From: Thuidium tamariscinum
Taxonomy: Eukaryota; Streptophyta; Bryopsida; Hypnales; Thuidiaceae
Reading direction: 5' to 3'
Assembly: GCA_947034885.2 (NCBI GenBank)
Contig: OX344749.2
Location: 5,099,501-5,163,500, forward strand
Length of the DNA stretch: 64,000 nucleotides
Shown one piece after another: positions 720-58,059 of this stretch. Below the pieces are notes generated by a model. The model was not told the DNA's origin. It was given only the letters and a program-made list of their open reading frames with translations, and made no database searches. Every line of letters begins with the position of its first letter. Within the stretch, counting starts at the first letter, position 1. The translations under genes were made by a program, and so were the position numbers.

Positions 720-749
720 GGGTCATTGCATGAAAGACTTGTACTATTT
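720..749 (+). repeat. Left terminal inverted repeat of the 14.1-kb transposon
   Basis: Begins GGGTCATTGCATGAAAGACT and pairs with 14823-14852 at 29 of 30 bases; the single difference is T versus C at the twelfth position. Homology with the empty-site paralogue ends immediately to its left. Confidence 0.9.
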
Positions 750-2346
750 TCCGTCACACGTTGAAAGTTGAAGTTGTTTTGTAGCATAAGTAATGGAAAA
801 AAGATCCAATGAAAACGAAATTTCAGGTGAAGGTTCCTCTTGCATTTTTCAGTCTTCATAATTTTTTTCAGTATTTTAAAAAATGTTTTGGTAGGTCGAA
901 CTGAATTTTCAGAATATGTCACAAATATGGTTTTCAGGGTTTTGAGTACTTTTGAGTACCCAACCTAGTGAATCTGAATCTGAGGTTTAGGTGGGTTGTT
1001 CCTCTAATGAACTCTAAACTTTTCACGAGAGGGATTTCGAAACCATTGCTTCTTGTGCCTTCCTCATGGCCTCAAAGTGCACCTCATTTACCAAACATTT
1101 CTGAGCAATGGAGCTTCAAAATTCAAATTTTTTTTTGGGATTCCTGTAGTAAACAAAATTTCTAGGAATGGCCATTTTTTTCCTGAATTTTTTAAGGTCG
1201 GCACCTAATTTTTAAAAATGGAAATCATGACAGGTATTTTTCTAGTTGAAAATACAATCTCTGCCGGATGATAGTATTCCAGGGTTCTCCGAAGTAGTAC
1301 TTAGTACTGGTGGGGCCCAATTATGCTGACAGATTCCAACATAGACCTGATTGAGCTTCAATGCTGCAGTCGCCATTTGCTGGATGGCATCGTCATTGCA
1401 GTAGCTGCCGGCACCACCATAATTTGATCAGACATTAGGGTTTCACGTCTGTGCATTGTGAATTCCATACCTCTGTCACGCACAAGCGCATGAAAATGCG
1501 CTATGCGGGATTTCAGGTTCTCGATTTTGTGTCGAATTATGTTGGTAGGGTACATGACAAACAAGAATGGATAGGCAGAGGGTGCGAATCCGTCTAGGTC
1601 TGAGGACTCAAAGCTTAGTAGAAGCTGTGGCGAGGGAGAATCAAAGACAAGAGTGGAGAGATCGTCAACGTCGCTGCCGTGCTAGAGGAGGTCTTGAAGA
1701 CCCTACATTAGGAGAACAAGTTGAATCGGCAGATGTTGATGCAAATGCAGATCTTCACTGGGGAAGGCAGAGACATCGTACTACAATGTGGAGAAGTGCA
1801 CAACGAATTGTGGCCCAATTGATTAGGAAGTTGGAGCGTCTTCAAAATCCTGCTCTGCGCCATGCAGTGCTCGAGAAAGTATTCACTAACTAGCGCGTCC
1901 GACCACTTCTACCTGAATACTTTCCTAGTCCTCAGGAAGCTAGAGCACAGAGCGAGATTTTCAAAAACATTCGTGCTGATTTGGCGGCCTTGAAGATACC
2001 TCATACCTCCGGTATGCTTGCTAGGAAGCGAGCCATCCTTGAAGCGGTTGTGTCGGAGCTTGATTCGGACATCAGCAACTTCCACAAAATTCTTGGCACT
2101 CGGAAAGAGAATTTAGTGGCTGCCGTCGAGCGTTTGAGATCAGCTACAACATCATCATCGGGCAGATATGACATTCCCACTCGAAGGAAAAGGGAGGGCG
2201 GCCTCTCCGATGAGATCAAAGCGGCTGTGGTTGATTGGTGGACTCATGAAACAAGAGTTAGCCCGGGGCGACGCGATGTGCGACGGAAACACCGTGGACG
2301 TTGCCTTTACGATACACACAGTGCCCACTTGCTGCTAGAGACTCAG

Positions 2347-3846
2347 GTGCACCTTTCCATGCACTTCTCTCTTCCTCATGTTCATGATGATTTCTTTTTA
2401 ATTATTTTGCAAGCGTGGTGGACATGGTTCTTAGATGCACCCTAGTTTTTGACTCCTTTGTTCACGTGGCACATGTACAGAGAGGTCAGAATATGAGGTC
2501 TTCCACTGAAGGCTAGATAGGCTGACTTGCTATGTAAGTCAACTCCCTTACTATTGTGAGATACGATCATGCACGTATATGTAATTGCTTTTTTTCCTTT
2601 AATCGGTCTTAGAGGTTTTCACCATTTCCAAGCAAAGGCAGTCGCTCATTTCTCGACGTACATATTCATTTGTGGAGACGTACGTCTAAATTTGTTACTT
2701 TCTATATAGGAATAGCAGTTCCCTATTCACGTCTGTAGCATATACAACGAGGACTGTAAGAATGTCAAATAACATTCTTGTCGTTGGGTGCACATGACTA
2801 ACACTTACTGCTGGATCCGTGTAGGATGGTTCACATCAATGCTTGAATCGGAAATCCAATTGCCGGCACTGTGGTGCATTGTATCTATTTTTAGTATTGC
2901 TTCCCTGCAATGTTATGACGATTAGACGTCTCATGAGTAGTTTTCCACTTAGGGCTTCCTAGAATCCCAGTATATTTGTAATATAGATCATGCATGACTG
3001 CCTGCCAAGTCTGTGAGCACCTAAGCCTTCATCGTGCAGAATACTTGTAGTGAGCATTGTTTCTGACACTTGTGAACTATGAAGTCAGTCGGATGGTGTG
3101 ATAGTACTACGTCTACCTTCGAACTTCTTATTATATAGGAAGGCATTCTTTCTATGAATTTGAAATACTTCTCTGCATAAGTGTACTACATGTTTAGAAC
3201 TGCCTTACATCTTGTTTTACGTAGCTGTACTATGAAGAACAACATAATGTAGTATAGTAGCCTTTGTAGTACTAACAAGGACGTTCACATACGTCCGACT
3301 CTTTGTGGTACGTTTTCCTGTAATTGACGTCGTATGTGCAGTGTACTATGTGCACTACACGGTTCACAAAGGTATCGTGAGCCCTGCACTTCTTTTGCCT
3401 TTCACTGCTTTCACCGTACTAACGCTACGTTGTTACCACCTTCAGAGTTGTATGCAATGCTTACAACCTCTCCGTAGTTCTTCACAATAGCTTTTGTCAA
3501 CACTAACTACTACCTAGTACCACGTGAATACTACCATGGGCTATGTACTCTACTTATTCCATGATGATAGTGGAATATATACCATCCAGTGAACTTCTTT
3601 TATAGAACTTAGTACTACTAGTGTTACATAGAGTTCTGCAGTACTCTCTAGTATTACTTCACAGTACTATATATTGCCCAAGAGTGCTCTGGAGTACTAC
3701 CAAGTGTATTATATACTCCTACTCAATGCTTCATAGTACTGTCAGACTTACTAAAATGAAGTTGTAGGTACGTCCTCCACTGATGTCATTGTAGTTTCTA
3801 CAAGATACTTGTGCTGTTCTTTGCCTCTTTTCTTTGTACGCTTCAG
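2347..3846 (+). other. Long intron of the transposase gene
   Basis: The donor follows GAGACTCAG and the acceptor is CTTCAG before GTGCTC. The flanking exons join in phase 0. No open frame in it resembles a protein. Its 3' half is rich in AGTACT and GTAC words. Splicing is inferred, not observed. Confidence 0.55.
3611..3740. repeat. AGTACT word cluster in the transposase intron
   Basis: Five copies of the palindrome AGTACT occur in 130 bases, plus near matches. Similar clusters lie at 6645-6749 and 12725-12875, all inside the transposon and all non-coding. Confidence 0.7.
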
Positions 3847-6237
3847 GTGCTCATAACAGTGGTTACCCTGGAAGTGGTGCAGATGCATTTATACCATCGG
3901 TTCATTGAAGCATATCCACAGTGGTCCATCCAACATCGTACTTTTTTCAAGCTCCGCCCTTTTTTCATCATCCAATGTAAGGAGCGCAATGTATGCTGCT
4001 GTAGGTATCACATTCAAGTGCTCTACCTACTAGAGGCTCTAAATGCCTTTCGTGACCCCCAAGATGGTGCTCATATCCGGTTCCTTTGTACGTGCCTCTG
4101 TATTGTTTGTGACGTCAACGATGAAGGAGTTTGCAATGTTGGTAGCAGTCGATTCTCTGGAGTCACTGCATTATGCGAATCTCTTCTATGTCCAAAAGTC
4201 GAAGACCAAGAATTCCACAATCTGAAGTGCCTCCTAGGAGCCTGCAGCAAATGTGGTGTGAAATTCTTCAAGGTGTGTCCACGAGAGAGGGTTGAGGATG
4301 CAACTCGCACTATTAAATGGAAGCAATTCCAATATGAGATTGTGGGGACTTCAGCAGATGGAAGGCCCAAAAAAAGAATCAAGGAGGTCCACATGACAAC
4401 TTCATTTCCTGAGTTCCTTGATTTCTTTTATCCTACATTGGAGCACTTCATTCAGCACAACTTCATAGCGAAGTGGCAAACTAAGCAGGCAAAGCTCTTG
4501 CAGACGTGTCTACAGGGACGGACCATTCTAACTCATATCGATTTTGCAGAGAACTACACGTTTGCTCCTCAAAACGAAATTCAGTCTATGTACTACCACT
4601 CTGACCAAATCTCAATTTTGGTTCAAGTGACATATTCTGCAGACATTGCTGACGATGCTTTGCAGAGAGGTGTGCAGCTAACCAGGCGTACCCACTACTA
4701 CATTTCTGATGACAAGAATCATGACACCTATTTCGTACAACATTGTCTCATGTTGCATTGGCGTTGGATGCAATCCATGGGGTCCTCTCCACAATTTCAT
4801 TACGTTTTCAGTGATGGGTGTGCCGCTCAGTTCAAGAGTGCAAAGGCCATGTATTTTGTGGCTAGGTGAGTTTATTTTCCAAGAGCTTGGTTGCCCTCAA
4901 TGTTGAAGCACCCTTAGTTTTCATGATATACTAATATGCAGTCCTATGTTTAAGGGTTAAAAGTGTTGTGCGTTCCTAAGATTCACTTGCTCATTTGTTT
5001 GTTGCTAGCATCCATGAAGGAGTTAGCATGGTAGTATGTCTGCATTTGAAGTCTTGCTATGGCATACAGATTGGAGCCTCTTGTAATCCATACAACTTCA
5101 CTTCTTGCAGGTACCCGTCTTTGACAAGCGGATGCAAGATGATGTGGAACTATTATGGTAGTGGGTATGGAAAAGGAGAATGGGATGGAGCTGGAGCTGT
5201 ACTAAAGAGGGCCCTTCGTCAGGAGCAATTGCTGAATCCACATAGACGCCTACAAAATGCTGCAGATTGCGTGCTCTTCCTGGATACTACCATGGCTGGT
5301 CAAGTGCCTTCTTCAGACAATGAAATGAGGTCAATTTTTTGTGTCAAGCAAGTCTATGGTTTCCTACGTTGTCAATGGCAGTATACTTTGAATTACAACC
5401 TTCAAGTCTGCTAAGAATTCAGAATTGCAGCAGTTGATACATGCATCACTGATGCTCCATAGGCAACCATGATCTTCAAATCTTTGCAGGTCATACCGAT
5501 ATTTCCACCTCATAGGAAGCAATGATGTTGAACGTGGGAATCGTAATGCATGTGATTCCATTGTTGGCTCTTCCAAATTCCACTCAATTTTCGCTTCGGA
5601 TGTACATGACCCAATAAAGTTGTTAGTGCACCGCTTGTCTTGTTTCTGCGGACCATGCTTGGAGGAAGATTTTGTGCACTGTGAGGAGAAGAATTATGTG
5701 AAGCCGTGGCGTGCAGTGAAGATTCAACCCCGAAATGTGCACTTTGCTGCGGAGCAGTTGGCCACAGCAGAAGGTGACGACAGCTGGGACTACGAGGTTG
5801 ATGAAGAATCCATGGCAAACTTGGTAGCACCGGGAGACAATTTTGCCGTGCCTGCAGATGCAGACAATGAGGAGGGAGTGTCTTTTTTCATTCTCCAATG
5901 CCAAGTTCCGAAGCACACTTTGCAGTCAGACGTGGAATGCCCTTGGGGAGGGCATTTTGAATCGGGAGACTCTATCATCTACGGTACTTATTATCAAAAA
6001 TGGGGTCGGCATGATGCCAACAACTACGTGTACTTGCGAAAATCTAGGCAGGCTTACGTAGACGCCAGTATAATCCTCGCTTGCAAATTTCAAATGATCC
6101 CCCGACAACACAGAGTGAAGGGTGGTGATGCTGTATACAGTCTACCGGAGGAGACATTGGATGTCATCAACACAGCACTGGAGGACTGGATGCTACACTA
6201 TAGACCGATCACTTTGGCCATATTGATCGAGTCCTAA

Positions 6238-7036
6238 GCCTTGAACATTTTTTATATTCTAATACTACTACTCTGTGCTGTACATATGATCCCCATATAT
6301 ATCACTGAGTTCATCCACACAATTATAATTTCAAAGGGGTATGCTAATGTACAAACACTCTCGATTGATTGCTGCATATGTTTTTGTGGTCTGAATCATA
6401 CAGTCACTTGTAATTAGAAACAATAGAAATCTATGAAACTTTATTGGAAGAAGTGTTGGATAAGTAGTTACATTGTGCATTCTGAACTCTTAGTTCAACT
6501 GTGTAGACGTACCAGTGAACTATGATGTAACGAGAAAGAGTTTATAAGAATTCTATCATAAAATTGTACAATTGTAGGCAATGACCGTGACTACCTCTGA
6601 TAGCACAATGATAGTATTCAATAGTAGAAGGAGCTTCCAATGAAAGTACTCTAATAGTAGTCCAGAAGCACTGCAATAGTACTTGAACAATTCTCAAAAA
6701 GTTCTATGATAGTACTATAGAAGTACTATACGAGTACTACGGAAGTACTATAAGATTACTATAACAATTTTTGTATTAAGTGTTTGTAGTACTCATAGAG
6801 ACTGAGACAATCCTAGCAAGTACTATGCTTTTATTGGCAGAAGTCTAGATCATGTATGATCTCCAGTGCACCTGCATCTCTTATTCCTACGTCTACGTCC
6901 CTTTGAAGGTTAGATCGAATGCCAACCTTAGGCTTGTTTTTCATATATGAGCACACTGTAACCCGTAGTCACGTTCTTCATGTACTGAAGTGGTTCAACG
7001 ATTGACGCTGACCAATGGCTTGTTACACATCATCCT
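6238..7036. other. Spacer between convergent transposon genes, with AGTACT cluster
   Basis: This stretch separates the transposase stop from the SET-gene stop and holds no gene. At 6645-6749 there are six AGTACT copies in about 105 bases. Both genes must end transcription here, so termination signals are expected, but I cannot point to one. Confidence 0.6.
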
Positions 7037-8604
7037 CTACTTTGGTTGTCGACAGAATCTGCTGCCACAAGTGCAATGGAAAGGAAAATGAACGCCACCT
7101 TCTTTAGGAAACTGACATCCGTAGTCCCATGTCAATTCCTCTCCCTCTTGCACATCGCGAATTGTGAAAAACGCAACCTACAGGTTACACCGCATAAGAA
7201 ATGGGAGTCACTGGGGCAGACATTTTAGTACTTGACAATGCTTAAGGCACACGACACACATTACGGCATACGTTGAACAGCGGAGCTTACATGGTACAAT
7301 GTGGGAATCTCATCTTCTATCCAAACTGGGGTGTCCATCAAATTGGCATCCCCACACCTACATCAATATTTCCGAGCAACAATTGCACTATCAGCATGTA
7401 GCAAAGTAGAACTAAGTCTGAAAGTGACATCATGAACTTTCTACTAGCAAGGAACACAAAAAAGGGTGCAAGCATCAAACCTATGATTTAGATACCGCCC
7501 AATGTTCGTGTACATGGATCCATCTATGGAGAGAAGAGAATCATCCCCTTGAGTGACCTCGGACTGCCAGTGCGTATCAAAAGCTACAGAATACTTTGAT
7601 GGCGAACCCCGTCTAATCAATTCCGCATTAGTCACTATTTCTCCGTTGTATTCAAAAACAAAACAACCGCAATTCAATTTCTCTAGCGTCCGGATTCCCC
7701 AGCCTTTCATGTTGTCCAAGTGACATACCTGCACACATTCATAATTGCTTGAAATCTCTAAGCATGTGGGAACAATATTAACTCCTACCATGACTACTTT
7801 TAGCAAAACCAGCTCATGAAAAATTGAGAACAACTTGCGAAAGCATCATTGTAACAGTCCAGCATCCTTCTGCAACAAAGATAGCATGAAGAAGCAAAAC
7901 CTTTCTGAGAAGTAATTTACTAACCTCGAACCTCTTTTGTATGCCCTTCTGTACCACTCTATTTCTGCACGTTCCTTCACAACTACAGAAGTTGTGACAT
8001 TTTTTTATGTACTGGCGTTGCACATGGCCAGCACAACGTCCATCTGCCAATTCGGGGCAAGACATTTGACTCCCACAATGCACCAAGCCTCCATTGCAGA
8101 AACTTCGTCTCCGCTTAAACTGTAGTACCACATATGGACGACTCATTTAGAATTGAAGGGTCCACGCATTTTAGAATCCCATCCAGTGAACTTCTTTGCT
8201 TCCATGATGCACTACAAAGAACAGGTACATGACAAATGGGAAGGTCAAACAATTTGCCTAATGATATGAAGCATTTAGAAGAAGAGACTTACCTCTGTGA
8301 TGTAACGAGTTTGAATGCTGCTGTCCTGCATGTACACTGCAAGGTTACTCTTCAAAACATTGGAGCAGTGTCCACCACGGTGATCGCATTTGCCAGGCAA
8401 AATGCAAGAGCACGACACACATAGTGTACGTGCTGAGGCTAAGGCATGCTTAGTCACAGAGTCATGTAAAATTGGACTGCATATATATGTATACGATGTG
8501 TCCCACAACATCAAAGCATGTGGTACAATAGGTACAACAAGTACGATAGGAATCTTTTCCATACCCCGTGACAAGTCACAATGACAGAATATTTGTCGTC
8601 CCTC
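7037..8604 (-). other. Catalytic pre-SET, SET and post-SET exons (uninterrupted)
   Basis: This is the best supported part of the minus-strand gene. Five exons (8604-8293, 8119-7925, 7728-7481, 7357-7291, 7177-7037) give 321 codons with no stop before TAG at 7037-7039. The cofactor-binding GWG, the Asn-His pair of NHRC, the Tyr of WDYG and the three post-SET Cys of CTCGSRFC are all present. The zinc-binding Cys of the pre-SET are mostly in place. Nothing visible would disable catalysis; the damage is in the N-terminal half. Confidence 0.85.
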
Positions 8605-10524
8605 CTGTTCAAAGCAACACATCATAGGGTGCACAACACATAGTACAAAACTTTGAATTTCAAAATGAAGAATGTACAAAACTATACGTCCTTGGTATAT
8701 ATTGTAGTAAACCTCTGCACTAGGATTGCAGTTTCCATAGACTGCCCCTCCTGCCGTTAAGTAAGGCCTGAAAACTATCAACATTGAGCCACATGCTGAG
8801 GCCCAATACCCCTACTCAGGCCCTACATGTCACATATACGGCCAAGGCAGTCCTCTACCACCAGAGGTGGACCACCACTTAGGAGGCCATTGGCTCGAAA
8901 TCCTTACACTTTCCTCTTACCTACCTCTACCTGTGTAGTCGCCCCTGTTGGACCTGATGTTTTCTCCACTTGTGGTACTGTAGTACGTGGTCGCAAGGTC
9001 CTCGTACTGCCTGCGGGGGGATTCAATACCTTTGACGCACCTCGACTTGGAACCTTACCTGTCAGTCCACATCATGTGCATTTTATGAGAAATCAAACTC
9101 ATGCTATACATGCAAGTGTGAATGTAGGAAAACAGTAGTGTAAATGAGAACTCCCAGACATATATACTTGATGAGGAGCCCTTGGCATTGCCTCGACTGT
9201 TGGCAGGCGTAGGGATTGTTTCACAAGGAGTGCTGCTCTTGCCCTCTGAGAGAATCTTCGGGAGCGGTACTGCAGAGTCTACAACAATGGCCACTCGTTT
9301 TTCCACCTTCTCGTTAGCGGTTGCTGTAATGTCCCAAGGATCTTTAGTGTCCTATACACACATGTACACGCACAAACTAACATTAGGTGGTCAAAGTATT
9401 CCTTGCATGTCATGTTGCAAGTACTACTGTTGAGAAAAAGCAAGTCCGAAACCGTATGAACAGCAGCCTTTGAAAAGAAACACAAGTGAACATGTAGGAA
9501 GGAAAACAAGTCGGTAGGAATTCATGGGACATTACCTCTGCAGGAGATTCCATAGCTGCTGATATGACAGCATGCTCGATTTCGGTTTCTTCCTTAGAAG
9601 CATCAGTAGCAATCCCACCGGCGAATGCAGTCTTTGTCACAACGTCACATTCATTCCGGACCTCTGTCTGAAGTTCTGTGGTGTTGACTTCTACAATAGT
9701 TGCATTGAACGAGGGGAGGGAGAAGTGCTCTTGTATGGATTCCTCTTCCTGTGTGGCCGCTACATCACGTAGTAGTGGTGTGTGCACGTTCCGTGCCTCT
9801 GATTTCTAAGTGGATGATGGACACTCAGGTACCGCTACTTCTGCTCCTCTTGATGGTGAACTTGTACAACTTTGCTTCAAGCCTATGGACATGGTTGAGC
9901 ACTTAGAGTCGAAAGGATTTGAAGTTGCATCTGCTTCTTGAACGCTAGCAGGTCCCCTAACATGATGAACGCGTTCTTCATGTACCACTGTTGTCAATGT
10001 GTGGTGATACTGCCCTTCAGCAATGCATTTTGTGAATGTACTGTCAGTGGCAGAGAGACTGGGCGCACCTGTGCCTACGGAGGCAAGCCCTGCAAAAAAC
10101 CAACACAATATGAGAAGGAAGACTTTTACGTAGAGGTCTGAACATGCTTATTTCTTTACATCCACTATGTAGGAAAGACAATAATGGCATAGCAGTGTTG
10201 GAACAAAATAAGGAATAATCCATCGAAGGTAGTAGATGGGTGAATAGCCTTTTCAGGACGTCCTCTATGACATATAATGTATTGCACTAAATGAAAGCTA
10301 CTATTGTGTATTTAAGGTTCGTGCTCACAGAGGTACTCATGTCGAGTATTAACTAATAAGACAGCATAGAAAGAACAAGTATTGCCCGACATCCAAGTCA
10401 ATGGATTTCTGAGAAGCACCCCTATATAACTACATGTATCTTATTCTATACGTACAACTACTTCACTATGTAAGAAGACAAGGAACAAGGTGTTGAAATT
10501 ACAAACCGCGCTATTGTCACATAC

Positions 10525-11243
10525 CAAAGAAGGGGTTTGCATTCCTAGGCGAAGTCGGGAAGTTCCGCAAATCAGCAGTGCCTAGCATCTTGTCTTCCAA
10601 ATTTTCCGCACTTGCAGGCAGACCAGTCATGGTGTTCACGAATCCCCAACTGGCTAGCCATAGTGGATGAATGGGACCACAATCACTCACAGCACATATA
10701 GACTTTGACTGGAACCATTGCTCACCACACCATGGGTGACACACATGGTGGCAACTACTGAACATGACATCTCTGTATGGGAAACCTTCTCCGCAAATTA
10801 CACACCGTAAGTTATCTAGTGTGATGGTGAGCGGCAAAGTATGAAGCCTGTCCTCAAGGTCATTGCGCTGTGGGAGCGGGTGCATGACCAATCCTTCTCC
10901 ACCGTGTAACAAGTCATGCATTTGGTCTTTCAATGACGACAGACGGGACTGGTAGCGTACAATCTTTGTGGTGACCTCCTCTAGATTGGTACGCAATTGT
11001 TGTTGCGTCTCGTCGAATTCGCTGAGCTTCTTGAAGTGGCCCTCTAGCACTCGTTGAAGCAATTCGCTTCCGCTTTTGTCTCCCATCTCAGTCATAGTCT
11101 CTTGGAGTTGCTGAATTCCAAGGACTCTTGCACAGTGCTGGTTCTCTGTTTCCTCTGTTTTCTGTCTGAGGTCATCAGCACTCTGTTGCAAGTCTTTCAA
11201 CTGAGCTTCCACAAATTCGACCAGAGCCTGAATGCTGCCTTTC
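10525..11243 (-). other. Coiled-coil plus RING-like finger exon
   Basis: The exon encodes about 100 residues of heptad-like Gln/Glu/Leu-rich sequence. A zinc-finger-like block follows, with Cys pairs CVIC, a central CHHVCHPWC and a distal CAVSDC. The arrangement resembles a RING or PHD-type cross-brace but is atypical. From memory, similar blocks occur in seed-free-plant predicted proteins lacking SET. The exon ends in a one-base overhang that matches the next exon at 10089, which is why I join them. Confidence 0.55.
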
Positions 11244-12724
11244 CTGAAAGTTTGCGAGTCCACTGCAAGGGTCAGCATTATATATTCTCGTAAATACTGA
11301 ATACTACATAAAACTCTTGATAGTAATACAAATAGTGAATAAAATCCAAAGGGAGTCTTATGTGACTTAGTGTCCACCTTGTTTTTCAGTCAAGGGCAGT
11401 ACTAAGTACTGTGCAAGAGAATGAAAGGAAAGGTGGACGTATATACTACAAGAACGGCATACAGAAAGGAGGTTTGGGAATAGGACGTGCATATGGGCAG
11501 AATGCAAGGATCATAGTAAGAAGAAAAACTTGGAAAATTAATGAACCAAATGTATAGGACAGAAAAGAACAGAACCTTTCAGCCAAGGCTATAGCACTCA
11601 GATGCCCGCAACGTCCTTCCGGAGCTAACGGCTGCTTCTCCTCTCCGCCCCCACTGCCATCCTGCATGTCACGGAAAAGTTGGACGACCGGCATCTTTTC
11701 CTCCTTCACCTCCAAATATTTGAGAAAACCTTCTTCCTTGGCGACTTCTGCTATCGGTTTGTTTAATGCAATGGCCAATCTACTGAGCCATAGTCTTACT
11801 CACCGAGCATAAGATCTTCTTTGGTACAAATTAGTCTCTGCAGCAAACCCGGCCCAATTAATTTTGTGGCCTTTGGTTTGGAGAGTCCAACCCATAGCCA
11901 GTTCCTTACCCACGTGATTGGTGCAGTATGGCTTCTGGTAGTACTAACAGTACAATGCCTCCACCTCTTTCCTCAATGCCGGTGTGAGCTTCTCTGCGAG
12001 CAAGAAGCCATTGCGCCCCTTCTCCGGACCGAACAAGTCTGTCACATCCTTCAAGGACACGTCCTTGTCCATCTTCAATCTGTGAGGATTCAAGCCATCA
12101 CGACCCAAATTGCAAGCAGTGGCAAATATGTCCTCAGACATTGCAGTGGGAGGCCGCTTTGATGGCTCACCAAGTAGTATGAGTTGGCGTCGGCACTCAG
12201 TCTCATTGAAATCTCGAGGAGAAGACGCACTTTTCTTCCGCTTCGATGGGGTGTTCAGTAGCTGCAAATCGGCACTGTCAGCTGCCGATACGTCAGGACT
12301 CCGAGATGGGCAGTCGTCTTCACTGCCCTAAAAAGGCGACACTGCATGCTTCTGCTTCTTCTTTGAAGGAAGCGCCGTCTTCCTTCTAAGAGGGCTTTTG
12401 TCGTGTAACGATTGAGGGGCCGGCACCTTCAACGATCTCGTGGTCTTCTTGCTGGTGCCTTCTTCTGGAGGCGCTGCAACATCCAATCCACCCTTCTGTG
12501 ATGCAGATGGCAAGTGATGCTGCTTTCCTCTTATCTTGCCTTTCTTCTCATACGTTTTGGTTGTAGTTTGTCCTTCACTAACATTGTCGTCTTCACTCAG
12601 ATCCACTTCTTCGGCTGTTGTGCGAGACCGATTCTCAATAGATACAGTCTTCATCTTTGCTATAAAGGAAACCTGAAGAAATGGCCACACGAAGAGAAGA
12701 TCAGAAAGTGACAAGATGCAGTAT

Positions 12725-12875
12725 AGTACTCTTCTCATACTATAAGTACACAATAGTACTCGTTGCAAGTACTCCAAATCGGAAGAGTACTCCAAATCCT
12801 ATAGTCCCGTACTATGTGAGTACTCCAAATCGCAAAAGTACTCCAAATCCTACGGTCCTGTACTATGTGAGTACT
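12725..12875. repeat. AGTACT cluster with 51-bp tandem repeat
   Basis: Seven AGTACT copies occur in 151 bases just upstream of the SET gene start. Part of this is a 51-bp unit repeated twice (12768-12818 and 12819-12869) with a partial third copy. Each unit has two copies of AGTACTCCAAATC and one GTACTATGTG. Confidence 0.8.
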
Positions 12876-14822
12876 AAACAATGAGGTAAAGTACAAGAAG
12901 TATGACGGTATGAACTTTCTGCATAGGAAAAAAGAACGGGAAGAATGAAGGGAAGTGACCAACGGTACTAAGACAACACTGTGCCACTACTCCGACGCAT
13001 TGAAAGTACTCCAAAGAACAAGGAGGCATGCCCACAGACATAGTAGTATGAACTTAAAGAATGAAGAAACAAATAGTACTCGGAAGCACGTAGTAGAACA
13101 TTAGAGGAACAATGCAAGCTCGTGTAGTATCCTAGGAAATTATAAATGAAACACGTAAGTACTGACTTCATACTATAGACTTGAGAGTAGTACCTAAACA
13201 GAACAAAGAACAGGTTCTGGATATGAATTTTGTATAGGGTGCATACAAGCATTGCTACGACTATGGCATGGTAGAACCAGCAGTACTACAAGGTATTGTT
13301 GTGAGGACAGCATCTCAAAGGAAACCGGAGTAGGCACCCTACATAACAACAAAATGACACTGAAGTTCTACATAGTCTATATAGAGGATGCTCTGTACAC
13401 TAAAAACCACTACGAGTACTAAATGCAATTGAAGAAGCATGAAGGTATTGCATGGACGCAGTATTCGTCCAGTCTTCAGTACTACAGGACATCGAATGAG
13501 GTCGGAGGGTGAAAGGCAAGTGTGAAGTAGTAATGTCAGACCTAGCATAGCTAAGTGTTTACTAATGCATTACTACGAGCATGTTTTCCTACTACTTTGT
13601 GGAGAAGAAGCTGCATATTCAGAGGTTATACAAAGAATACTTCAAGAATTTCTATGGGTATTGAAATTCATACATTCAAAAATTCAAATCAGAAGAAAAA
13701 GGGATATTCACGCTTTGACAAAGATGCTACAAACGGAAGAGTATGCTAAGCACTGAAAAGTTCTACAATGGTCCCGCTTACTGTGCTTCTATTAATCATA
13801 GACACAGGAAGACGAAGGAATGACTCATCTTATCAACAAGAGAATGCAATGGCTAATTTTGGAACTTCGAAAAATGAGCGGAGTATGGGAATTCCATCCC
13901 TACATAGCATTCCAAAAGACGCAAAGTGCACATAGACTCCTAGAATCATAGCTGAAGCAAGCAAGGAAGCAAGCATACGTCTTACTGAAGGTGGTTTAGG
14001 GTTGAATTCTATACAAAGACAGTGAAAAAATTACAAGCGAGGCCGACATTTAGAGGAAATGATCGCCCAACATTAAACAGCCCCCCCATCCAACAACCCA
14101 ACAATCCAAGAGCAAAAGTATACTTTCGGGGCAGTAGAGGAAGAAACATAGCATTACAGTGAACCCACCCCCCAAAGAAAATTCAGTGGAAGGGGCAGAA
14201 ATTGTAACGCACCTCCCACAATGGCGGAATGCCTTGTTAGCGGAATTTCGACAGCCTCCTTTACCGAGCGGTGGCCTCCCCGACTGCCAGCAAATTCCCA
14301 CGCTCACGTCACCTTTGCGTTCAATTGCGGCAGCCACCCACAGCTCCAAACTCGTCGAAGATAACAAGAAAACGACAGACAAGTTGGAATCTCTTGCACC
14401 GACACCAGCAAGCGCCTCACGGCAGCACGCGCGAGAACTCTCTGAAATCGAACACCGGCTATCGCAATTCACAAACTTCAAAAATTGGTTGTAACATTCC
14501 CTTCAATCTACAACTCCAGCTCAATCCACACTCCACAGACAGACGAAAATTCAAGTCGCACCAAAACCTACTCATGGACGGCGCATTGAAAGTTAGACGG
14601 CGAGATGAAGTCAACAACGAAGAGGAGGATGATAAACAGTAATTCGAATTCATCCGCGGTCAGTAGCGAAGCGTGTCATCCACTGTGAAGCATCCGCGTG
14701 TCATTCCAGCCGCACATCTGATTTTCAATCAACGGCGCCTGTTTCATCGTCGAAACCAGGAATAGGACTCACAGTACTGCTAGTAGTCGTAGTACTGTCA
14801 TAGCGAAAAGCAAAAACGCAAC
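12876..14822. other. Upstream region of the SET gene, right part of the transposon
   Basis: I see no convincing gene. From about 14040 to 14760 the sequence becomes GC-rich with overlapping open frames on both strands (for example 14159-14494 plus and 14050-14481 minus), none with a recognisable domain. Its position suggests the promoter and 5' leader of the minus-strand SET gene. More AGTACT copies occur at 14773 and 14790. Confidence 0.4.
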
Positions 14823-14852
14823 AAATAGTACAAGTCTTTCGTGCAATGACCC
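14823..14852 (-). repeat. Right terminal inverted repeat of the 14.1-kb transposon
   Basis: The reverse complement begins GGGTCATTGCACGAAAGACT and matches 720-749 at 29 of 30 bases. From 14853 the DNA resumes homology with the empty-site paralogue near 52427 and then 52143 downward on the reverse strand. Confidence 0.9.
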
Positions 14853-15623: not shown

Positions 15624-15921
15624 CCCGGGGAGGACACTTCTTGTGTATTTGGGGGACCCACGTGCGGTGGTGGGGTATTTTTAGGGGGGCTATCAATTAC
15701 TTGTAATCATTACTTGGCAACATTAAAAGAGCCCCTATTTTACCATAAAGCGGAAAAATCAGCCATATTATCATCCCTATTTTATTTTTAAAACACTTTG
15801 CCTTTTTAATGTCCCCTATTTTATATATAAATTTCTTATAAATTTTACCCAAGATTATTTAAATGTATCCTATCTTCCGCTGCACGTAGGTTATTAAAAA
15901 ATGGGAAGTGTCTTCCCCTAG
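15624..15921 (+). mobile_element. hAT-type MITE, copy 1 (298 bp)
   Basis: Terminal inverted repeats begin CCCGGGGAGGACACTTC on the left and CTAGGGGAAGACACTTCCC on the right (reverse complement). It is flanked by a perfect 8-bp duplication ACTGTGTG at 15616-15623 and 15922-15929. An 8-bp duplication is the hAT hallmark. No coding capacity. A second 298-bp copy in the opposite orientation lies at 49706-50003. Confidence 0.92.
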
Positions 15922-15948
15922 ACTGTGTGGGACACGTTTAATGGCCAA

Positions 15949-16665: not shown

Positions 16666-19600
16666 ATGGCGCGGCATGTTGTGTTGTGTGCTTTCGTTTT
16701 CATTCAACTGCTCTACGAAGGTCAGTGTTTTCAATTGGTCCGCAACATCCTTCGAGATCCAAACCAGGAGCTACAAACACCTGCCGATCTCTCTAATGCT
16801 GCAGACAGGGTGAGGATTATAGGGCTCACCATCAATCGTATTCATTTCGAAATTGAATTCATTTGTTTTTGGAGATTAATTTCTGCTGAAAATCGACGTA
16901 GGACGTCGATCACAACTGCATGACACGGGCGAGGACACAAGTAAGGTCACAATCGCATCTGAGTCAATTGCAAGCTAAGCATGAAAAGATCCAGTTGATT
17001 TAGGATCCTTGCGCCCACAGCCAGATTTGACATGCGTTATAGACGCTAGAGGTAGAATGCATTGTCTACGAATGGAAGCTCATGGTCGAACGTGTATCCA
17101 TGCCAGATTCGAGAAAATCTTTGGGGCTTCGATTTTTGTGAGGTTCCCGTTTTGTACTTTTGCATTTTTTCTGCACTTTTCCAATTGACAGCCTGAGCTA
17201 GTGTGCTCTTATAGCTGTGACCTCTTTTATGAGAAGAGTTGGGAAAAGATTCAAACTGACGTTGACAGAGATAGAAATCCTAAAATGCCGTTCTTCGCAA
17301 ATTTTGCAACAATTAAAGACCGGTGCATGTGGGCTGAGTTATGAATTTGGTCGTGAATTCTTTTTTCTAAAAGGATGCGCTGATCGATCAATGAAACGTA
17401 CGTCTTGCTTTGTTGTCAGATATTGCGATCCTCCATCGTGCGTAAGGACAGCTTAGGCGCAAAATCTACGAGTGAAAGATTCTTGGATGCAATGCAGCAC
17501 AATCACAGACGCATGAGCTTGCGACAGAGAAAAGAGCGATTGGCAGCGGACTTTGGAGGGGAGCCGGTAACAGTCCCGGTGTCCTTCGGTTTGGCAGTAT
17601 TTGTGATGCCGGTATCGTTGGACACACCTCCTCAGCAATTCACTGTGGAAGTCGACACCGGCAGTCAGCTCTGTTGGATTCAGTGCGCCCCTTGCGAGAG
17701 CTGCTTTAAGCAGCCGCACGCGTTCTTCAATCCCATGGCCTCGAGTTCCTAATCCGAAGCTGCGTGCGACGACCCTCTGTGCTAGGAGGTTAGTACCCAT
17801 CAAATTCCACAGTCAATCAGAAACCCTCTACATCTTACTAGAAGGAGTTTAGAAATTACGGTACTCGGCTGAAATAGAGATTCGATGGGTAATTGGAAAT
17901 AATTAGAACTGATTTTCATGTCATAGAAAAAAAAATTAGTCCTAAATGAATTCGTCTTGTGAATTTGGAGCTGCTTTGAAATAGTGGTGAAATTCCAAGT
18001 CCGTCTAGTATCTCCAGTGTCCAAATTCAAGCCCAAGACTATACATGGAGTACATCTTAGCATATGATATTATGACTCATTGGTTTGAGGTTGCAACAAA
18101 GATAGACAATCGTGACTGAGATCGTCAGTTTCGTTGCGAAAGGAGACATTTCTGATATTGGCCCCTTTAGAGACAACTAGCTCACAACCAAACTCTCCAT
18201 CTTTCAGGATGCCTTTCCTGACCTTTGCTCAACCAAGTGTCGCAACAGTTTCGGAGCTACAAATGCCACCAACAAAATGAAAGTAACATTCAGTAGACTA
18301 AATTGCACTTGGGCAAACGTCGTCTAAAAGCTTCAGATGTCTTGCATTTTCCTAGCATTAAATTAATTGCTGCACTGAATTCGGGACCGTCCCTTCTATT
18401 AATTACTCCGCAGGTCCTCGATCCCACTTGCAACCCCTCCCACGCCTGCCACTACTTCTACGACTACTTAGACTCCTCCAGCACCCGCGGCGTCCTGTCC
18501 TCCGAAACGCTCACCCTCTCTGTCAGATCCTCCTCTCCTCACTTTCGCTTCGACTGCGGCCACACCAACAACGGCAACTTCGAAGCCGAGGACGGATTGT
18601 TCGGGTTATCCCAAGGCGCTCTCTCCCTCCCGTCGCAGCTGGGCGTAGCGAAAGTATTCTTCTACTGCTTGGTCACGCAATTCTCTGGCGAAGTACGCTC
18701 CAGTGCTCTCACGTTCGGAGACGCGGAGGAGAATGCGCATGTGGCTTATTCCCCCATGGTGCCTAATCCGTATGGACATTATCACATTGATGTAATTGGT
18801 GTCACAATTGGTGGAGAATTGCTGCAGATTCCTGAGTCGGTGTTTGCGCTTCGTGATGGGCATGGGGGGGTGACTCTGGATTCAGGCACCACTCTGACCT
18901 ACTGGATCCAAGACGCTTTTGATGCCATTGTTGCGGTGAGTTGCAATACTTCTTGTCCTACTTCCGCATTATACTGATAATTTGTAACTATGAAGTTATC
19001 GGCTTAAGTTTGTAGAATGGTTTTAGACTTGTTCGGCATCTTTGTGACATGTGAAGTGTACAGGTGTTGAGGGCTACTGTACTGACCAATGTCTAAGTGT
19101 CTTAGTATCATTAAAATATCATAATTAAGATAATTGCAACCCGTAACTGTCTCATTAGCCTTTCATTATCTTATGGTGTATTGTGTTTATGGTGGAAAAG
19201 AGAAGGATTGAGAATCGTAACTTGTGTCACTCCTTACGCTCTCAGACAGGACCAGATCAAAGAGATTCTCACCCTATTTAATTAAGTTTGGAGAAGAAGA
19301 CTACACACTCTTCTAATTCTCTCAAACGTTTCAGTCATTGATCATGCATCTAGTACTAACATAGTGTCATAGTCGTTCATCTGATTCTAAGTCCATTGAT
19401 CGACGAAGAATTGGAGAATAAGGAGGGTGCTCATGGTTGAATAGAACACTTTGATATTTCGTCCAATTTGAGCTCTCTTGGGCATTGTTGTGAGTGAGTT
19501 TGGAGTCTTTCAACGGGTGCCTAAGAGCCATATATACTAGCTTTAACCTTGATAGGGATGAAACAATCCCATTCCATTTGAGAATTAATTGAGATTTGAC

Positions 19601-21826: not shown

Positions 21827-23015
21827 TTGCAGAGAAACAACATCATAGACGGAGACTGGGACCTTGTGAGTCGGGAACCTGACTCCATCGCCATTCACAA
21901 CTACTTCATGGCAGCTGCAACTCTGCACTTGTTCCAACTGTGGAGTTGTTTCGACCTTTTAGAGGACGACCTCAACTATTGGGCGAAGCCTCGTAGCACT
22001 ACTTGGTTCTCAACATTTCTCTTAGAACAATATGGAGAAGATCATTGGATTGAGCTTTTCCGCATGACAAAGGCCTCTGTCTTTGCGTTGGCCAATCTCT
22101 TGAGGCCAACTAGTGCAAAGAAGAACACTAAATATCATCCTGCAATTCCAGTGCTAGTGTGTGTAGCATGCACAATCTTTAAACTGAGTCAAGGAGCGAA
22201 TTTACTAGTGTGTAGCGAATTGTTTGCTGTAGGACGTAGTTCGGTTTCTATGGTACTCCGAGAAGTAGTCCATGCAATCTATGACATCCTTCGCTCTGAA
22301 ATCAGCTGGCCGAGAAGAGAAGAGCTTCGACATGTGGAAGCCCAATTTTGACAGTTCTGTCGACTCCCTGGTGCAGTCGGCTCTATCAATGGAACTCATG
22401 TGGCCATCAACAAGCCAAGATTTAGAGCGACAAATTACTTTTATTTTAAATCGGGCGGATATACTCTCAACTGCCAAGCTGTTGTGTCTGCAAATAAACG
22501 CTTCATGGATTTGTACCGTAGAATGCCGGGCTCCACAAATGACTCTAGAGTCCTTCAACGCTCCACTTTACACCACAATGGTAATGATGATAGTCTGTGG
22601 GATGGTGGTCACGTTTTCGAAGGATTCACACCTTACCTATTAAAAGATGTAGGTTACTCGTTGTTGTTGTGGCTTATGGTACTACATCATGAGCACGACC
22701 GTACTTTGTTTTTTGAGCAACTATTCAATCGACGCTTGAACAGGGGACGTTTTGTCGTAGAGAACTCCTTCGCCCTCCTCAAAGCAAACTTTTTGTGAGC
22801 TTCTTGTTAAGTGCGAGCTAGATGTTGTTTTTGTGCCCAACGTCATCTTGACTTGAGCCATTTTGCACAATCTCTTGCAACGCAAGTCAACTCCTGACCT
22901 CACGGACGCTCTCCATGTGCATGAGACTGAGAACTCAAGGATTGAAAGAGTCCATCATGATGTCATCAGGAACGTTGCGGCAAAAGCAAATGACTTCGAC
23001 GGTCCACCTACATAG
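21827..23015 (+). pseudogene. PIF/Harbinger DDE transposase, broken
   Basis: Catalyses transposition with the Myb-like partner. An N-terminal helix-turn-helix-like part (about 170 codons) is followed by the DDE domain. The first acidic motif reads GSINGTHVAI where GxIDGTHI is normal, so the first catalytic Asp is Asn. The second motif GSTNDSRVL keeps its Asp. The third, RGRFVVENSFALLK, keeps its Glu. Breaks: TGA at 22349-22351 in front of the DDE domain, a frame change near 22796, and TGA near 22855 inside ILTxAILHNLL. An acceptor at about 21832 suggests an upstream exon, so the true start is not placed. Confidence 0.88.
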
Positions 23016-48500: not shown

Positions 48501-49705
48501 ATGCTCTAATTGCCACAAAACAAGATGTTCCATATTTTTTTCATCATTTATCCAAATGAAACAAATGGAATCTTTTGATATAGAAAAAATTATCTGTTGA
48601 AAAATTAGATCTCTTTTGTTGATTTTTTTAAATTATTTTTAAATTTATATTACACAATTTTTGTTTCTATAGACAAGTTGAATTGAAATTATATTTCCAT
48701 ATTGTTTATCTAATTTTCTATCTTGAGATGAAGTTTTAAAAAATCATGTGAAAATTTGAGATCAAAGGTACTTGGAGACTCTTTAGGGACCGAGTAAGTT
48801 TCAAAACATTATGCTTATAGGCTATGATTGATTAATGAGATAGTTTTGAAAATAAATGATAAAGCTTTAGAAGAATTAATTTTTATAAGTTTGTGAGCAT
48901 AAAATTATTTAGAGAAAAATATTTGGCAAAGAATTGATGACCCTATCTTATTTGCAATGTATAGTTTTTCAAATATTAAACTAAATTACTGGGATTTTGC
49001 CTCTTTCTATGCTATCAATGATGTTCATTTGAGAATCCAACATCTTAGATCCTAAAGATTCAAGGATTTTGCACAAATTATAAATATGGCATTAAATATA
49101 AGTTCCATAAATTCTTTGAATTTTGTGTAAAAAATAATAATATTGAACATCAATAATATGAAATATTTCTTTGGTCAAAATTCCAAAACCATTGACAAAT
49201 TTGTTTCAAATTATTTTTGAAGTTTTCAATTTCAATAGAGATTTATTAAAAGTACCCAATTTCAATCTTTGTTCTATAAATTTTCTACAATTAGTCAAAA
49301 ATGCAACTTCACTTTAATTGTGAAAAGTATACATCCAATTTAAGTATAGAAACATCAACAATTTCTCCAAATAATAAACCTTATATTACTAGGTATATAC
49401 TAACAACTTTGTACTATTTTTCTTATAGATTTTTCTATTACCATTGAAGTATTAATTTCGAATATGAATATTGCAAGAATGTAATCTTGATTGTATGGAG
49501 AAAATAATTTTGTGATTTTTCCTTTCAAAAAGAACCGAAAAACAAGTGATTGAGCTTGTAGGAATTAAACTCTTGAAGGATATGCTTAGATGAATTGATT
49601 ATTTTGAAATTAACATTCTCTAATTTTAAAATTAGGATTTATAACACTATATTTTAAATAATGGGGAAATTTGAAACTACCATCCAACGAAGTTTTAGTT
49701 ATAGT

Positions 49706-50003
49706 CTAGGGGAGGACACTTCCCATTTTTTAATAACCTACGTGTGGCGGAATATAGGGTACATTTAAATAATCTTAGGTAAAATTTATAAAAAATTTAC
49801 ATATAAAATAGGGGACATTAAAAAAGCAAAGTGTTTTAAAAATAAAATAGGGATGATAATATGGCTGATTTTTCCGCTTTATTGTAAAATAGGGGCTCTT
49901 TTAATGTTGCCAAGTAATGATTACAAGTAATTGATAGCCCCCCTAAAAATACCCCACCGCCGCACATGGGTCCCCCAAATATACAAGAAGTGTCCTCCCC
50001 GGG
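49706..50003 (-). mobile_element. hAT-type MITE, copy 2 (298 bp)
   Basis: Opposite orientation to the copy at 15624-15921 and the same length. It is flanked by a perfect 8-bp duplication GTTATAGT at 49698-49705 and 50004-50011. The two copies are very similar, which suggests fairly recent activity of the family. Confidence 0.93.
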
Positions 50004-57359: not shown

Positions 57360-57840
57360 GAAAAAGCAACTGGCAACTATTTCTCCAAAGTGTCAAAGAA
57401 AAACACATCGCTGAGAATTTTGGCTTGGTCAGTCTTTGACAAAACTGACTCTAACTTAACGAAGGGTACCTGGATCCCATCACTACAGTACTGTCCTGGC
57501 CACTATATAAGAGATCAGTTGTACCGGTCCCGACAGTACCGGTACCTGCATGCCTGCCCGCCCCCTGTACCCAGAAGCTTCCGCGCATCTCAAGCTCAGG
57601 ATGCCAAACAAAGGCGAGAACGTGGAATAGTCCAAATTGGCGAGGAGCGTCCAGTCGCCTTTCTCCCTTTCCACCACTGACAGCAGTCACAGCACACTGC
57701 AAATCCTGGATTTAGCCTTAAAGTAAAGTGCCCTCCCAATACTGTACAAACCCACCGATGAGCATGGGGCGCGGGTAACTCGGCTCGGTAAGTGGGAACC
57801 GGGGAAGGTCAATTAGTATAGGGCGCCCCGCTTCCAATCA

Positions 57841-58000
57841 CAGCTCCGTCCCCCAATCCTAGATCTCAACCTCAGCTTCGTTCCCCAATCCTAGATCTCA
57901 GCCTCAGCTTCGTTCCCAAATCCTAGATCTCAACCTCAGCTTCGTTCCCAAATCCTAGATCTCAACCTCAGCTTCGTTCCCCAATCCTAGATCTCAGCCT
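57841..58000 (+). repeat. 32-bp tandem repeat, five units
   Basis: The unit is close to CAGCTTCGTTCCCCAATCCT followed by AGATCTCAACCT. The five units are nearly identical. They contain no spacers, so this is a tandem array and not a CRISPR. It lies in a GC-richer patch. Confidence 0.88.
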
Positions 58001-58059
58001 CAGGGTCCTCCCCCTCCCAGTGGTAGATTTCAGTGCCTTTAGGAGCACGTTTCGTCCCC

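Follow-up and report, generated by a model that had tools for sequence, protein, structure and literature searches.

Why would a DNA transposon carry, and keep, a gene for a histone methyltransferase? Transposons are usually viewed as targets of histone H3 lysine 9 (H3K9) methylation, and here a widespread plant family of them keeps an enzyme of that very class under selection. The question is raised by a 64,000-nucleotide stretch of the Thuidium tamariscinum genome (C1:5099501-5163500; hereafter the window), in which an earlier reading made from the letters alone (the sequence-only reading) had placed, at positions 720-14852, a transposon with a transposase and a second gene for a SUVR-class enzyme. 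Comparison across the genome establishes 720-14852 as a single, decayed member of a large class of DNA transposons in plants. Full elements of the window's lineage (class A) hold two convergent genes, one for a transposase and one that encodes a coiled coil, a RING-like finger and a SUVR-type SET domain (the RING-SET gene). Taken as a whole, the best explanation, which we regard as moderately probable, is a transposon with a selected RING-SET gene that would mark the element's own AGTACT-bearing chromatin to control its own silencing.

The terminal inverted repeats of the window copy (left, 720-749 on the plus strand, GGGTCATTGCATGAAAGACTTGTACTATTT; right, 14823-14852 on the minus strand) are 30 nt long and 97% complementary, i.e., the 29/30-bp inverted ends from which a 14.1-kb DNA transposon had been read. 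In the genome searched (363.2 Mb, 19 contigs), the end pattern with at most three mismatches has 881 forward and 917 reverse matches, 1,798 in all, against 0 + 0 for a reversed control, and the transposon stands as first described. About 100 of these matches were listed, and the nine other elements longer than 9 kb with both ends located are those found, not a census. Eight of the nine hold the SET gene between both ends; the ninth (C4:2917893, 9.7 kb) retains both ends and a 4-bp duplication but carries an internal deletion and has no SET. The search for other full copies, for which the sequence-only reading had named SET-less copies as the adverse outcome, thus found the gene in place.

Nine places picked from left-end matches had SET exons in six cases, with C4:2917893 as the deletion copy; at two of the nine the SET is absent from the stretch read, one being C4:24835919, which is also without a transposase. 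The end pair there, 6.2 kb apart, has no duplication, transposase or SET match and was excluded from the element count. Around C1:42910000 lie portions of two inverted neighbor elements, each 14,920 bp end to end with SET matches inside. These two (C1:42902444-42917363 and C1:42921988-42936907, both read in part) are of equal length, inverted and 4.6 kb apart, and are perhaps an inverted duplication; another element (C1:13643834-13658697) was counted from the coordinates of its ends and SET match. Target-site duplications, examined in class A copies only, are exact and 4 bp long at six of the seven long elements with flanks read, the exception being the window copy. The closest copy (C9:14246231) shares 86-88% DNA identity with the window copy over nearly its entire length, and in the remaining copies the match is broken into blocks of about 70-89% identity that are mostly exons and ends. 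The same ends also bound short elements (loci L013-L038, about 0.73 and 1.07-1.09 kb long) that resemble miniature inverted-repeat transposable elements, some of them near or inside one another; a 4-bp duplication is present in 7 of 21 short end-pair rows, some of which join ends of different elements.

The association of transposase, RING and SET holds genome-wide. A SET exon query, with 146 of 146 candidates scored, gave 142 matches at 140 dispersed places. Transposases were sought with three queries from three lineages (150 scored of 259, 342, and 248 candidates, respectively) and the RING-like finger with one (150 scored of 345), and the counts for both are therefore lower bounds; for one transposase query the first 150 of 155 matches were used, and for another 27 of 150 rows, picked by eye as new, were added, of which 17 proved to be new places. 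Related transposases occupy at least 204 places. At least 123 of the 140 SET places have one within 25 kb in convergent orientation, compared with a mean of 1.47 and a maximum of 6 convergent pairs under random placement (300 draws); one further pair is divergent and three are on the same strand. The RING-like query matches at least 147 places, and a match lies upstream of the SET, on the same strand and within 9 kb, at no fewer than 104 of the 140 (controls: downstream 1, opposite strand 0). Among the matches listed, 17 SET places lack a transposase; 12 of these have a RING within 20 kb, and the other five include a host SUVR gene (C1:43260408) and a host SUVH gene (C7:20171783).

Related elements without a SET have transposase frames of up to about 650 aa, and all 27 places below 50% identity in the first transposase search belong to this group. 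Three such elements have a RING match at 8.8 kb; correspondingly, among the matches listed, 6 of the 30 RING places without SET have a transposase opposite them within 30 kb, at 8.8 kb in three cases. These few cases hint that the RING gene is older than the SET in these elements. The SET places are spread unevenly, with 27 of the 140 on contig C11 and one on contig C8. The last family match on C11 lies at 17.26 Mb; should the contig end close to that point, its density would be several times that of the other contigs. C11 could be a sex or heterochromatic chromosome.

The SET gene recurs in two lineages beyond class A. Class B (loci L062 and L059) features an uninterrupted 656-aa transposase frame and a 317-aa upstream frame, no stops in the stretches compared, and the exon order of class A, with RING followed by SET; its coiled coil and RING-like finger are matched at a tblastn E value of 1.7e-11, and its SET exon scores with Pre-SET (6.3e-13) and SET (1.4e-9). 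Its whole transposase fragment is matched at 95-100% by at least 11 places, itself included. The SET of class C (L063) scores 68.4 bits and has 25 dispersed strong DNA matches including itself, six others being at 84-97%. Such close copies in classes B and C are a sign that SET-bearing elements have multiplied recently. At some class C SET places, for example C11:12252697, C4:2131916 and C2:35039959, a further RING-like frame lies some 13-16 kb upstream of the SET, in addition to the one at about 4 kb.

Ratios of nonsynonymous to synonymous substitution (dN/dS) were obtained by Nei and Gojobori counting; the values reported are a subset of pairs, since saturated dS gives no number. For SET exons c and d (coordinates below), dN/dS is 0.09-0.15 between subfamilies in the unsaturated pairs, where the ratios are rough, and 0.22-0.29 between close copies. 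The whole SET gives 0.13-0.29, with 0.42-0.47 in two close pairs; the RING, 0.14-0.30; the conserved N-terminal domain, 0.04-0.17. Transposase exon b stands at 0.07 where dS is measurable and at 0.18-0.25 in close pairs, and the other transposase exons range from 0.09 to 0.21 between subfamilies. Copies decay after insertion, and the close-pair values are therefore upper estimates of the constraint on active lineages. At the level of codon substitution, these ratios show purifying selection on the SET. Since at least three divergent lineages keep transposase, RING and SET in association, and such selection acts on the SET, we regard the SET as a working part of the element.

Where did this SET domain come from? 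In a tree of 11 rows (five class A SETs, class B, host SUVR, host SUVH, SUVH6, SUVH4, and EHMT2), a branch with 100/99 support sets the element SETs and the host SUVR apart from SUVH and EHMT2. The tree took five of seven class A SETs (copies C10 and C1 were left out), and class C, SUVR3 and SUVR5 are absent from it. The order of class A, class B and host SUVR is not resolved within their side, so one or more captures are possible. Gene structure agrees with the tree. Class A shares three of the four examined SET-region introns of the host SUVR at the same position and phase, namely after VQxG..(Q/E) (phase 0), within NHRC between R and C (phase 2), and between YH and AFF (phase 0); of those three, class B has only the NHRC intron and, like class A, lacks the fourth. 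Because the introns are shared with the host gene, the donor was genomic DNA rather than cDNA, and gene structure thus shows the SET to have been taken up at the DNA level, introns included, from a SUVR gene. The SUVR class given in the sequence-only reading is therefore borne out by the tree, within its sampling, and by intron positions.

The host gene itself is distinct. PF10440 (WIYLD) has one match in the genome (three candidates scored), which lies in the probable host SUVR gene at C1:43260408, separate from the element, and none in the element; the element protein is therefore SUVR-derived in its SET half and not a SUVR protein by architecture. The host SUVH gene at C7:20171783 has SUVH6, SUVH4 and SUVH9 as its best Protein Data Bank (PDB) relatives.

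In the window copy, the RING-SET gene runs on the minus strand, convergent with the transposase gene, with exons that span 12654 to 7037. Its N-terminal region (11566-12654) consists of a basic stretch and a conserved domain of unknown fold (11947-12327). The coiled coil and RING-like finger follow (10530-11251; CVIC at 10778-10804 to CAVSDC at 10679-10696), and a linker exon (9530-10087) is joined in frame to the RING exon. Two short linker exons, KDPWDIT (9166-9348) and TRTLRPR (8916-9008), have similar stretches in copies C5 and C2. The pre-SET is split into exon a (8293-8583) and exon b (7925-8119, CSCEGTCRNRVVQKGIQKRFE), which as separate exons scored with no Pfam family. SET exon c (7480-7728) runs from GWGIRT to LNHR and is followed by the phase 2 intron that splits NHRC; PF00856 matches here at 26.9 bits (cut-off 22.4) in the exon 7447-7845. 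Exon d1 (7291-7357) extends from CGDANLMDTPV to LYH, and exon d2 (7037-7177) carries ELTWDYG and the post-SET, CTCGSRFCRQPK, before the stop. Splicing restores NHRC, ELTWDYG and the post-SET CTCGSRFC, and an apparent frameshift in the SET part near 8150 is explained by a splice acceptor before FKRRRSF. NHRC and the DY motif are kept in the aligned copies, as are the post-SET cysteines except in copy C10, which has lost one.

Because the RING exon joins the linker in frame, the conserved short exons continue to the SET, and class B has the same order, we infer a single polypeptide that contains both RING and SET. The gene is thus present as the sequence-only reading had it, but longer, appearing to include the coiled coil and RING-like domain. 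That reading also described pre-SET, SET and post-SET with their catalytic motifs, which stands for the SET and post-SET; the pre-SET cysteines are rearranged, and in-frame stops lie upstream at 12328-12330, 11944-11946, 11800-11802 (all N-terminal, the last within a stretch conserved with copy C2) and 9806-9808 (linker exon). The SET exons themselves are open.

The transposase gene comprises four plus-strand exons. The N-terminal one (1567-2346) has a similar stretch in eight of the nine other places and an in-frame stop at 1891-1893; the next (3847-4865) carries HIDFAENYT (4534-4560) and FSDGCAAQFK (4807-4836), with dN/dS 0.07 relative to copy C5; the third (5111-5329) contains GKGEWDGAGAVLKR; and the C-terminal exon (5490-6237) ends in a stop at 6237. 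HIDFAENYT, FSDGCxxQFK and GKGExDGAGA are motifs common to its relatives. A transposase called DDE-like from the sequence is accordingly present as a gene, but no Pfam family matches it: a Pfam scan gave nothing above cut-off and one sub-threshold chance match. Searches of PDB sequences returned nothing in one case and one chance-level match (E 0.29) in another, and pattern searches of viral contigs and of bacterial or archaeal contigs yielded 57 and 38 stretches, respectively, with no confirmed relative.

Several superfamilies were considered for this transposase. Target-site duplications are 3 bp in Harbinger and 9 bp in MuDR elements; MuDR membership was rejected on the 4-bp duplication found here. 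Harbinger and HarbingerS were likewise set aside, as the transposase has no PF13359 match, though an open reading frame elsewhere in the window (22352-22795) does. The KDZ group (Zisupton type) duplicates 8 bp (PMC12730594), as against 4 bp here, and was rejected as well. Sola2 elements feature 4-bp duplications (PMC3627910), with which six of the seven long class A elements agree; its reported preference for AT-rich duplications is no rule here (tgcc, tgga), and the element is not filed under that name.

If the RING-SET protein acts on chromatin, what would bring it to the element? AGTACTA is the commonest 7-mer in the five class A copies with 7-mers listed, and full class A elements hold 29-38 AGTACT sites (six copies), where a first-order model predicts 3.5-4.9; the rest of the window (49 kb) has 9 against 8.2 expected. 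In the window element, 37 of 38 sites lie outside exons (7,779 bp versus 6,354 bp of exon; p = 4e-9), clustering in a transposase intron (3611-3740), between the convergent genes (6645-6824), and upstream of the RING-SET gene, where the cluster is partly a 51-bp tandem repeat (12725-13483). Class B has 13 sites versus 2.8 expected, and the SET-less L060 (6 kb, mostly coding) 3 versus 1.5. VANC21 of the transposon VANDAL21 binds YAGTATTAY, which is arrayed in the non-coding parts of its own elements (PMC5735166), and because the layout of the AGTACT arrays resembles the VANDAL motif arrays, we propose them as an address. The site reported for SUVR5, TACTAGTA (PMC7218100), is rare in the elements: the window copy has none and the six other class A copies have 0-2 each, while three lie in the remaining 49 kb of the window.

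From these parts we infer a self-addressed chromatin modifier. An element-encoded DNA-binding protein (the transposase or the RING-SET N-terminus) would read the AGTACT arrays and bring the RING-SET polypeptide there, which would methylate H3K9 on the element's own chromatin. The likeliest benefit would be control of its own silencing, e.g., mono- and dimethylated H3K9 (H3K9me1/2) shifted towards the trimethylated form (H3K9me3), in a VANC-like manner. Arabidopsis SUVR4 converts H3K9me1 to H3K9me2/me3 in vitro, and SUVR1 and SUVR2 show no activity there (PMC7218100); H3K9me3 accompanies active genes in Arabidopsis seed and is reported as permissive (PMC13017857); in a hornwort, H3K9me1 served as a constitutive heterochromatin mark (PMC10952607). 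Given the activity of SUVR4 and the presence of H3K9me3 with active genes, conversion to H3K9me3 on its own copies would be a plausible escape route for the element. Stated in full, the proposal is of self-addressed histone marking, in which AGTACT tags and an element-borne RING-SUVR fusion would together place H3K9 methylation as a histone counterpart of VANC anti-silencing, a system that would predate the divergence of at least three lineages and occur at some 135 SET-bearing places in the genome; we advance it tentatively, with somewhat less than even confidence.

The sequence-only reading had named three possible uses of the enzyme, namely to tune the element's own silencing, to silence rivals or to guide insertion. 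The same anatomy would suit a protein that silences its own family (as copy-number control or host protection) or rival elements through repressive H3K9 methylation. SUVR2 is reported as a silencing factor, a reference title in PMC7218100 places SUVR4 on transposon chromatin, and most transposable elements of model bryophytes are said to bear H3K9me1 (PMC10952607). Selection, however, would hardly be expected to keep a self-silencing gene in every lineage, and the permissive role described for H3K9me3 in Arabidopsis seed (PMC13017857) runs the other way; we consider such silencing unlikely, yet worth keeping in view. Catalysis might also be beside the point, if the protein serves as a decoy or scaffold that interferes with host SUVR complexes or uses its RING for ubiquitination. 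The rearranged class A pre-SET and the inactivity of SUVR1 and SUVR2 in vitro (PMC7218100) would fit, whereas NHRC and DY persist in the aligned copies, as do the post-SET cysteines in most (copy C10 having lost one), class B retains a scoring Pre-SET, and exons c and d are under tighter constraint than the whole SET, all of which leaves a purely non-catalytic role rather unlikely. That the SET protein instead steers integration or excision, for instance through an interaction that guides the transposase to H3K9-marked chromatin, is suggested by the tight transposase-SET linkage and by the 27 of 140 SET places on contig C11; the C11 shares of SET-bearing (25/123) and SET-less (10/81) transposases, however, are not significantly different (p = 0.18), and we judge this role improbable.

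Two further explanations would deprive the SET gene of any role in the element. Plant transposons often pick up gene fragments, and a passively captured (transduplicated) piece of a host gene would need no function; a complete domain, dN/dS of 0.09-0.15, the RING linkage and retention in three divergent lineages speak strongly against this, and we give it very little credence. The other, that a normal host SUVR gene in a conserved place happens to lie between chance inverted ends, had been raised by the sequence-only reading as the way in which it might fail, and the one point in its favor is that the window copy lacks a target-site duplication. It is already refuted by the 1,798 end matches against none in the control, the SET inside eight of nine other elements longer than 9 kb, the dispersed and multicopy SET exons, and the separate probable host SUVR gene with WIYLD.

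A transposon that uses a selected RING-SET gene on its own chromatin thus remains our preferred reading, and a number of observations count against it. The RING-like finger scores 25.0 bits with zf-RING_2, under the Pfam cut-off of 27.3 (for the class B finger, two further RING models with cut-offs of 30.3 and 27.4 give 15.2 bits). At its flanks the window copy lacks a target-site duplication, and it carries five in-frame stops, four in the RING-SET gene and one in the transposase; because both genes are interrupted, it is probably a relic, and most other class A copies read carry stops somewhere. The pre-SET cysteine cluster of the window's subfamily is rearranged in its first half, which may alter catalysis. 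Class A lacks the host intron between ELTW and DYG and has an extra one, between pre-SET exons a and b, that is absent in the host gene. At least 81 of the at least 204 transposase places are without a detectable SET, which is therefore not needed by every related transposon. Between subfamilies, dS is 1 to 2.8, near saturation, and this is what makes the dN/dS ratios rough. An end of the class A type, with up to nine mismatches, was not found in the 11 kb read around class B, and AGTACT sites are conserved between close copies barely above other hexamers, without significance (p 0.06-0.26). Finally, H3K9me3 may act as a repressive mark in this plant, and the effect on silencing would then be opposite to the one proposed.

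Other repeats and genes share the window and genome with this family. The open reading frame at 22352-22795 matches PF13359 (DDE_Tnp_4, Harbinger type) at 69.1 bits and is another DNA transposon remnant, and 18297-18974, with TAXi_N (76.4 bits) and TAXi_C (34.9 bits), is presumably a pepsin-like protease fragment. A separate 301-bp inverted repeat pair (15624-15924 and 49703-50003) matches at 96%, and 57803-58045 is a tandem array of 32-bp units. PF02182 (SRA, methylcytosine-binding) has 115 dispersed genome matches on most large contigs, many with near-equal scores and often paired about 1.1 kb apart, and another repeat family may carry this domain; of 72 positions compared among the 115, one lies within 20 kb of a transposase of the present family.

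How does this element compare with known systems? SETMAR joins SET and transposase in a single primate host fusion gene and forms no mobile family, whereas here the two are separate genes in convergent orientation within a mobile element; the PDB match 3bo5 is the SETMAR SET domain. Having SET-bearing and SET-less relatives in one genome allows a clean comparison, in which the SET-less elements serve as natural controls: do parasites write the silencing marks of the host to escape silencing, to restrain themselves or to choose insertion sites? For the SET half, Arabidopsis SUVR4 is the closest enzyme type described (PMC7218100); SUVR4 has a WIYLD domain, in place of which the element protein appears to carry a coiled coil and a RING-like finger. 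A literature search that reached few subscription journals turned up neither a SUVR gene in a plant transposon nor a RING-SET fusion, in keeping with the novelty suggested by the sequence-only reading; outside plants, however, SET genes in DNA transposons are already known from HarbingerS and MuDR elements of Phytophthora (Kojima and Jurka 2014, as described in PMC12730594). Those are likewise DNA transposons with an acquired SET histone methyltransferase gene, and differ in their oomycete hosts and in belonging, by name, to other superfamilies, whereas the element here has 4-bp duplications and no transposase Pfam match. What is added here is the SUVR origin, the shared introns and the RING fusion.

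Similarly, fungal DNA transposons with a TET/JBP dioxygenase carry an epigenetic-mark enzyme in many copies, but the enzyme acts on 5-methylcytosine and the elements belong to other transposon groups (PMC12730594). Retrotransposons of dinoflagellates and charophytes have captured a host silencing enzyme, with streptophyte hosts included, in their case a DNA (cytosine) methyltransferase (PMC5890265). In VANDAL elements, VANC is a DNA-binding protein described without mention of a SET domain, and the motif is YAGTATTAY rather than AGTACT (PMC5735166); the likeness lies in the design, i.e., a plant DNA transposon with an extra gene for chromatin state and a short motif arrayed in its own non-coding DNA.

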